NCBI GenBank assembly: GCA_019118935.1
Contig: DWXY01000127.1
Coordinates: 1-40,092, forward strand
Direction: 5' to 3'
DNA: 40,092 bases
Origin: Candidatus Oscillibacter pullicola
GTDB taxonomy: Bacteria; Bacillota; Clostridia; Oscillospirales; Oscillospiraceae
Shown: positions 1-418 of the stretch, piece by piece
How positions within the stretch are numbered: the first letter of the stretch is position 1
Layout of the letters: each line of letters opens with the position of its first letter
Made by a program: the position numbers and the translations under genes
Notes under the pieces: generated by a model
Databases searched by the model: none
What the model was told of the DNA's origin: nothing
What the model saw: only the letters and a program-made list of their open reading frames with translations

Positions 1-60
1 AATTAACATACCACCGCTCCTCTGCAATAATTTTTGGATTTCCTTTTCTCTCAAAACCGC

Positions 61-142
61 ACAGGGAAGCGGAATACCGCCTCTCCCTGTTTTTCACCGC
101 ACCGGCCCCGGGGGCTGGCGCCCCCAGGCGGTGGGTGAAAAA
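61..142. terminator. Two consecutive strong hairpins (possible bidirectional terminators)
   Basis: ACAGGGA(61-67)/TCCCTGT(84-90) enclosing GCGG-AATA-CCGC; then TTTTTCACC(90-98)/GGTGAAAAA(134-142) enclosing a GGGGGC/GCCCCC hairpin. Confidence 0.5.
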
Positions 143-159
143 CAAAAACGCCGCGCAGG

Positions 160-360
160 GTTTCCCCTACACGGCGTAAGAAGAGACTTCTTATGCAACA
201 CAGGCATGAATAGATAACGACAAAAGCCGCCCTTTACAAAAAGGCCGGATTGTCGTATCATAATTCATGCGGTGCGGCCTTTCGGCCGTTGTGTAGGTGC
301 GCTATCACCTGCATAGGTTTCCAGGTGTTGGCGCACCTGGAAACTGCCGCATTTTTGTTT
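160..360 (+). ncRNA. Structured non-coding RNA candidate, multi-branch, ending in an intrinsic terminator (possibly raiA-motif-like, unverified)
   Basis: Nested stems: CCTACAC(166-172)/GTGTAGG(291-297); TAAGAAG(177-183)/CTTCTTA(187-193); GCATGAAT(204-211)/ATTCATGC(263-270); ACGACAA(217-223)/TTGTCGT(250-256); CGGCC(275-279)/GGCCG(284-288); terminator GTTTCCAGGTG(317-327)/CACCTGGAAAC(334-344) followed by a T-rich tract. No convincing ORF. Confidence 0.6.
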
Positions 361-418
361 TTCATGTCGATGATATCACGATTGTGATTCGCTTGCAAGC
401 CTTTTTCCAAACTTGTCC

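Follow-up and report, generated by a model that had tools for sequence, protein, structure and literature searches.

The structured element described here is very probably a transcription attenuator driven by an antisense RNA, as in pT181 and RnaG, a reading that rests on computation. Consensus-matching promoters on both strands, two RNA structures, mutually exclusive pairings that co-vary, diversified loops and, in most copies, a downstream gene in the same orientation were all found. The window, by which we mean the whole stretch of DNA that was analyzed (40,092 nucleotides), is an entire contig (C122) of a 161-contig genome which holds a single copy of the element. Comparison with relatives placed the conserved unit at approximately 137 to 363, with promoter elements reaching 398 (Table 1).

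TABLE 1 Features of the element, in window coordinates
Feature	Position	Strand	Remarks
Downstream gene start	1-10	-	ATG at 10-8, RBS-like GAGGAG upstream; cut by the contig end
H2, second hairpin	88-144	-	The U-tract serves again in the 5' arm (144-134), whose partner is 98-88
Sense leader RNA	137-363	-	5' end near 363; terminated form ends near 137; conserved unit
Sense intrinsic terminator	148-177	-	ACGCCGTGTAGGG GAAA CCCTGCGCGGCGT, then TTTTGTTTTTC; compensatory changes
Strand c, GUGUAGG	166-172	-	Forms the antiterminator with b or the terminator with strand d
Antisense promoter	233-261	+	TTTACA, 17 nt, TATCAT; TTGCAA and TATAAT in most relatives
Predicted antisense RNA, ~95 nt	268-362	+	Closed three-hairpin junction (P4, P3, P2), then U-tract; putative ends
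Junction-closing stem, 3' side CCGC	269-272		5' side GCGG at 347-350, minus strand
P4 hairpin, CGGCC/GGCCG	275-288		Covariation
Antiterminator strand b, CCUACAC	291-297	-	Overlaps the 3' side of P3; pairs with 166-172
P3 hairpin, AGGUG/CACCU	295-310		Carries the second of the two proposed specificity loops
P2 hairpin	317-344		Covariation; proposed specificity loop
P1 5' strand, GAAAAACAAAAAUG	350-363	-	Pairs with the terminator U-tract
Sense promoter	370-398	-	TTGCAA, 17 nt, TATCAT; -10 is TATAAT in most relatives

Structure and strand of the element

The initial annotation had described a single stable plus-strand noncoding RNA with its own terminator, and a structured RNA with a terminator was borne out with strong covariation. 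All of the stems that it listed are present, including CCTACAC/GTGTAGG (166 to 172 and 291 to 297), TAAGAAG/CTTCTTA near 177 to 193, a long stem formed by GCATGAAT (204 to 211) and ATTCATGC (263 to 270), and the CGGCC/GGCCG hairpin at 275 to 288. The roles of two of them must be reassigned. The pairing taken as the outer stem exists, but it is the antiterminator pairing rather than a closing stem, and the 11-bp hairpin taken as the terminator (317 to 327 and 334 to 344) lacks a T directly after it, being followed by TGCCGCA and then TTTTTGTTTTT; this hairpin is better explained as closing off a shorter antisense RNA on the plus strand. A stand-alone plus-strand RNA was rejected because the sense promoter and the strong terminator sit on the minus strand. 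What remains of that proposal is most likely the short antisense RNA on the plus strand, the larger RNA being a minus-strand leader. Folding of plus-strand positions 140 to 400 gave a z score of -7.8 against dinucleotide shuffles, with 0 of 200 shuffles equaling the native sequence, and the minus-strand RNA (137 to 363) gave a z score of -10.8.

The leader is laid out as a promoter, a three-hairpin 5' domain and a strong terminator, followed by a gene. Immediately before the RNA, 62 of 86 members have a sense promoter that matches the consensus at 9/12 or better, and this promoter is likewise conserved in all 16 distant members. Homologs have compensatory changes at all 24 modeled pairs; across 84 distinct sequences, each of these 5'-domain pairs has at least one such change, and 95.4% of cells are paired compared to 72.5% after shuffling, a signal that is abolished by sliding the partners. 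Within the domain, 99.3% of P3 cells are paired (compensatory change in 5/5 pairs), as are 98.2% of P4 cells (4/4 modeled pairs), and the junction-closing stem also appears in the plus-strand fold. P1 co-varies with the U-tract of the terminator (z of 16 versus permuted partners in 71 members, with relatedness still included), and H2, an 11-bp perfect inverted repeat, co-varies with a z of 6.1 on the same kind of permutation, again with relatedness included. P1 and H2 exceed the needs of a minimal attenuator; a protective role of P1 for the terminated RNA is possible, as is competition between H2 and P1 in the read-through RNA. H2, which lies downstream of the terminator, is kept in chromosomal copies and missing from several mobile-element copies. 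Attenuation through an upstream open reading frame (ORF) was considered and rejected, since the AUG in P1/P2 lacks both conservation and a ribosome-binding site (RBS).

Two further features were seen around the sense promoter. In three mobile-element copies (L052, L053, and L051), a palindrome like ATATGTGTATGCACATAT that resembles a repressor operator lies between the -35 and -10 boxes. In the window, a perfect 11-bp GC-only hairpin (GGCGGGGCGGC/GCCGCCCCGCC, 419 to 443) lies between the sense promoter and an XRE-type regulator gene, which diverges from the leader and has its ATG near 534.

An opposing promoter and a predicted antisense RNA

When P2 is read on the minus strand, A.C cells far outnumber G.U cells, an imbalance that contradicts a purely minus-strand reading and that led to the antisense promoter. 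This promoter matches the consensus (TTGNNN, a spacer of 17 or 18, TATAAT) at 9/12 or better in 73 of 80 members, compared to 3.7% of shuffles; the -10 box is exactly TATAAT in 54 members, and the spacer is 17 in 61. It extends to other families, where 15 of 16 distant members reach at least 9/12 and the remaining one reaches 8/12. The opposing promoter also accounts for the conservation of two motifs, AUUAUAC and GCAAG, that had no explanation in a minus-strand RNA; on the plus strand they read as TATAAT and a TTGC -35 box. The promoters of the window itself depart from consensus, both -10 boxes being TATCAT and the antisense -35 box being TTTACA.

The plus-strand RNA predicted from this promoter folds at -53 kcal/mol (268 to 362; z of -7.1). 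P2 is its final hairpin, and 81 of 85 members have a T-rich tail adjoining P2. In 69 of 80 members, P2 folds more stably as plus-strand than as minus-strand RNA (-20.1 versus -17.3 kcal/mol; p = 2e-10), whereas the terminator has its greater stability on the minus strand (-21.3 versus -15.4 on the plus strand). P2 is thus tuned to the plus strand and the terminator to the minus strand.

Mutually exclusive pairings and the proposed mechanism

Strand b shares nucleotides with P3 and can pair instead with strand c, which forms the terminator's 5' arm. The two pairings are mutually exclusive. The complementarity of b to c scores 15.9 with its own partners and 13.3 +/- 0.3 with permuted partners, a comparison in which relatedness is not removed. 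In other subfamilies b and c change together, as in ACUCAACAC with GUGUUGAGU, and one member (L019) carries matching insertions in both strands (CCGUACAC/GUGUAUGG). When leaders were folded only up to strand c, as nascent RNAs, the b:c pairing formed in 47 of 57; when the complete leaders were folded to the end, P3 replaced it in 49 of 57. The leader of the window behaves likewise, with b:c in the nascent fold and P3 in the complete one. Four members (L043, L085, L101, and L107) keep P3 and the promoter and have a weak b:c pairing. One genome (G123; members L123 to L126 and L134) has two distinct pairing groups, AGGAG/CUCCUACAC and GAGUG/CACUCAGCAC, which suggests separate specificity families side by side.

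In the mechanism that we propose, the minus-strand leader would be transcribed from its own promoter and, without antisense RNA, strand b would pair with strand c as the latter emerges; this would open P3 and block the terminator, so that the downstream gene would be transcribed. The plus-strand RNA, started at the opposing promoter within the leader and complementary to the 5' domain of the leader, would make contact through the P2 and P3 loops and occupy strand b. Strand c would then be free for the terminator, and transcription would stop near window position 137. We infer that both RNAs are made and pair with each other, that this pairing causes termination, and that the P1 helix stabilizes the terminated RNA.

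The loops assigned to this contact are where near-identical copies mostly differ. Between near-identical paralogs, mostly pairs from one genome, 52% of P2 loop positions and 46% of P3 loop positions differ, compared to 8% in P4 and 0% in the P3 stem and strand b. Antisense systems gain orthogonality by such loop changes in plasmid incompatibility, and we propose that the P2 and P3 loops are specificity loops diverging as antisense specificities do, although their variability could partly reflect drift.

Distribution and downstream genes

A blastn search of 301 genomes of the family recovered some twelve relatives at full length and a larger number in part, whose alignment has a common promoter and terminator, both on the minus strand. 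The first covariance model was built on the 113-nt 5' domain. By covariance model, the element was found in 123 of 401 family genomes and 45 of 106 genera, with at most 9 copies per genome. A broader model matched 43 of 295 genomes sampled from the order, one of which has as many as 11 copies; in the class sample 17 of 391 genomes were positive, and in the phylum sample 5 of 200. The relatives number in the hundreds. Carriers include genomes named Flavonifractor, Pseudoflavonifractor, Oscillibacter, Evtepia, Agathobaculum, and Intestinibacillus; Flavonifractor sp. An82, Oscillibacter valericigenes An411, and Evtepia gabavorous are cultured examples. Pattern matches in genomes labeled Micrarchaeota and Solibacter (L165 and L195) failed the covariance model and were taken as chance. 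Contigs frequently end just past the element (L098, L099, L126, L134, and the window itself), as repeated sequence is expected to break assemblies.

Most copies have an RBS and an ORF close behind on the same strand. By a simple rule, 36 of 67 first downstream ORFs are secreted-looking, compared to 31 of 261 background ORFs. S-layer homology domains were found in 17 of 38 downstream proteins put to Pfam, counts that are indicative because the proteins were chosen nonrandomly, and repeats of the leucine-rich, WG, or InlB type are frequent in these proteins. Behind other copies lie genes for tyrosine integrases, serine recombinases, or a PemK-like toxin, either immediately or past a short ORF, and a TraX-like gene is found downstream in the relative that is closest by identity outside the genus. 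In the nearest complete relative of the window copy (L084, 1855 to 2025), the counterpart of the ORF at the contig end stops in frame after 57 codons, and coding-like sequence continues in frame. Five distant members from the class Clostridia (L154, L156, L157, L158, and L159) precede a small protein of approximately 100 to 120 amino acids, one with a weak DUF6809 match.

Comparison with known RNA families and systems

The window gave no match to Rfam 15 at the gathering score, nor did 20 family relatives, and 16 order/class relatives gave none besides one tRNA; no Rfam riboswitch model matched in any of these three sets. The raiA motif RNA is a Firmicutes RNA of approximately 200 nt. The suggestion in the initial annotation that the element might be raiA (RF03072), which it resembles in size and phylum, or another known Firmicutes RNA found no backing in Rfam 15: raiA gave no match at any threshold tried and is unlisted for the window even at an E value of ≤10. 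The element does not match 6S RNA (RF00013), and the 6S RNA of the same genome is located elsewhere (C70:19008-19206). No Rfam countertranscript (ctRNA) family matched at the gathering score; ctRNA_pGA1 (RF00236), itself a countertranscript family, matched the sense terminator weakly, at the level of chance (20.8 bits, with the cutoff at 45 bits; E value of 0.1). A phage origin was rejected, with no exact match to the core in viral contigs and none in phages. In the literature searched, the family was nowhere described. Absent from Rfam 15, it is best read as a new family of chromosomes and mobile elements.

Most known examples of antisense-driven attenuation serve plasmid copy control and few are chromosomal, and pIP501-type RNAIII/repR is a comparable attenuator system. 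In pT181 and in RnaG/icsA, the antiterminator forms by default and antisense binding frees the terminator (PMC4878617 and PMC5394118, respectively), a scheme that the parts of the new family match. The new family resembles pT181 repC in having a leader with exclusive antiterminator and terminator structures and an antisense RNA, here predicted, that is complementary to the 5' part and would favor the terminator (PMC4878617). It differs in preceding surface-protein and integrase genes rather than rep, in its additional helices P1 and H2, in lacking a ctRNA match at the Rfam gathering score, and in its setting: blastn of three members against PLSDB found no plasmid, and a plasmid origin was rejected. 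In Shigella flexneri, RnaG attenuates the surface-protein gene icsA through kissing loops, an antisense-driven scheme (PMC5394118) that the new family would share ahead of surface-protein genes. RnaG, however, is a single 450-nt antisense RNA of a virulence plasmid, whereas the predicted antisense RNA is approximately 95 nt and the family is multicopy and spread across the Clostridia.

Alternative explanations

It is improbable that the element is an orphan riboswitch whose three-hairpin 5' domain binds a small molecule that stabilizes P3 and favors the terminator, the opposing promoter being incidental. A conserved three-hairpin domain ahead of a terminator/antiterminator is what such a switch would look like, and many copies precede surface genes. 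Cyclic di-GMP riboswitches are terminator-bearing leaders before surface and mobile-element genes in Clostridia, and GGDEF genes are commoner in RNA-positive genomes (45/57 versus 66/144, taking genomes G001 to G200 as those searched; odds ratio of 4.4, uncorrected for kinship). However, conservation among unpaired motifs is highest in promoter boxes of the opposite strand, P2 is tuned to that strand, and variability peaks in the P2 and P3 loops. Cyclic di-GMP itself was rejected as the ligand because 12 RNA-positive genomes lack a GGDEF match; the genome of the window is among these, and the family further differs from cyclic di-GMP riboswitches in its antisense promoter and its lack of an Rfam match.

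The strongly co-varying P1, which joins both RNA ends, and the strong terminator would also suit a stand-alone, trans-acting minus-strand RNA with coincidental downstream genes, and in one lineage the genes near cysS are variable. We regard this as comparably improbable: the downstream genes are nonrandom, the alternative b:c pairing would serve no role, and in several mobile copies the RBS lies approximately 12 to 15 nt past the terminator, leaving no space for a second promoter. The inverted-repeat ends, the patchy distribution, the multiple copies per genome and the contigs ending beside the element might instead recall a palindromic DNA element (a MITE or recombination site) with no RNA function. 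Such an element would not be expected to have sense and antisense promoters, mutually exclusive pairings that co-vary, or helices of strand-specific stability, with P2 and the terminator tuned to opposite strands, and we regard it as very unlikely indeed.

Significance

Taking the antisense-driven attenuator as the preferred reading, we suggest tentatively, as a possibility that we would not yet favor, that carrier genomes hold sets of attenuators, each with a private antisense RNA made orthogonal by its loops. Such sets could allow independent and possibly bistable ON/OFF control of many surface-protein genes and mobile-element integrases without DNA rearrangement, and the attenuators would then probably have originated on mobile elements and reached surface genes of the chromosome from there. 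The family is present in about a third of the sampled genomes of one gut family and is scattered across the phylum. If confirmed, it would constitute a widespread RNA layer over the surface display of gut Clostridia and the timing of mobile-element movement, and it would provide a natural source of orthogonal RNA switches.
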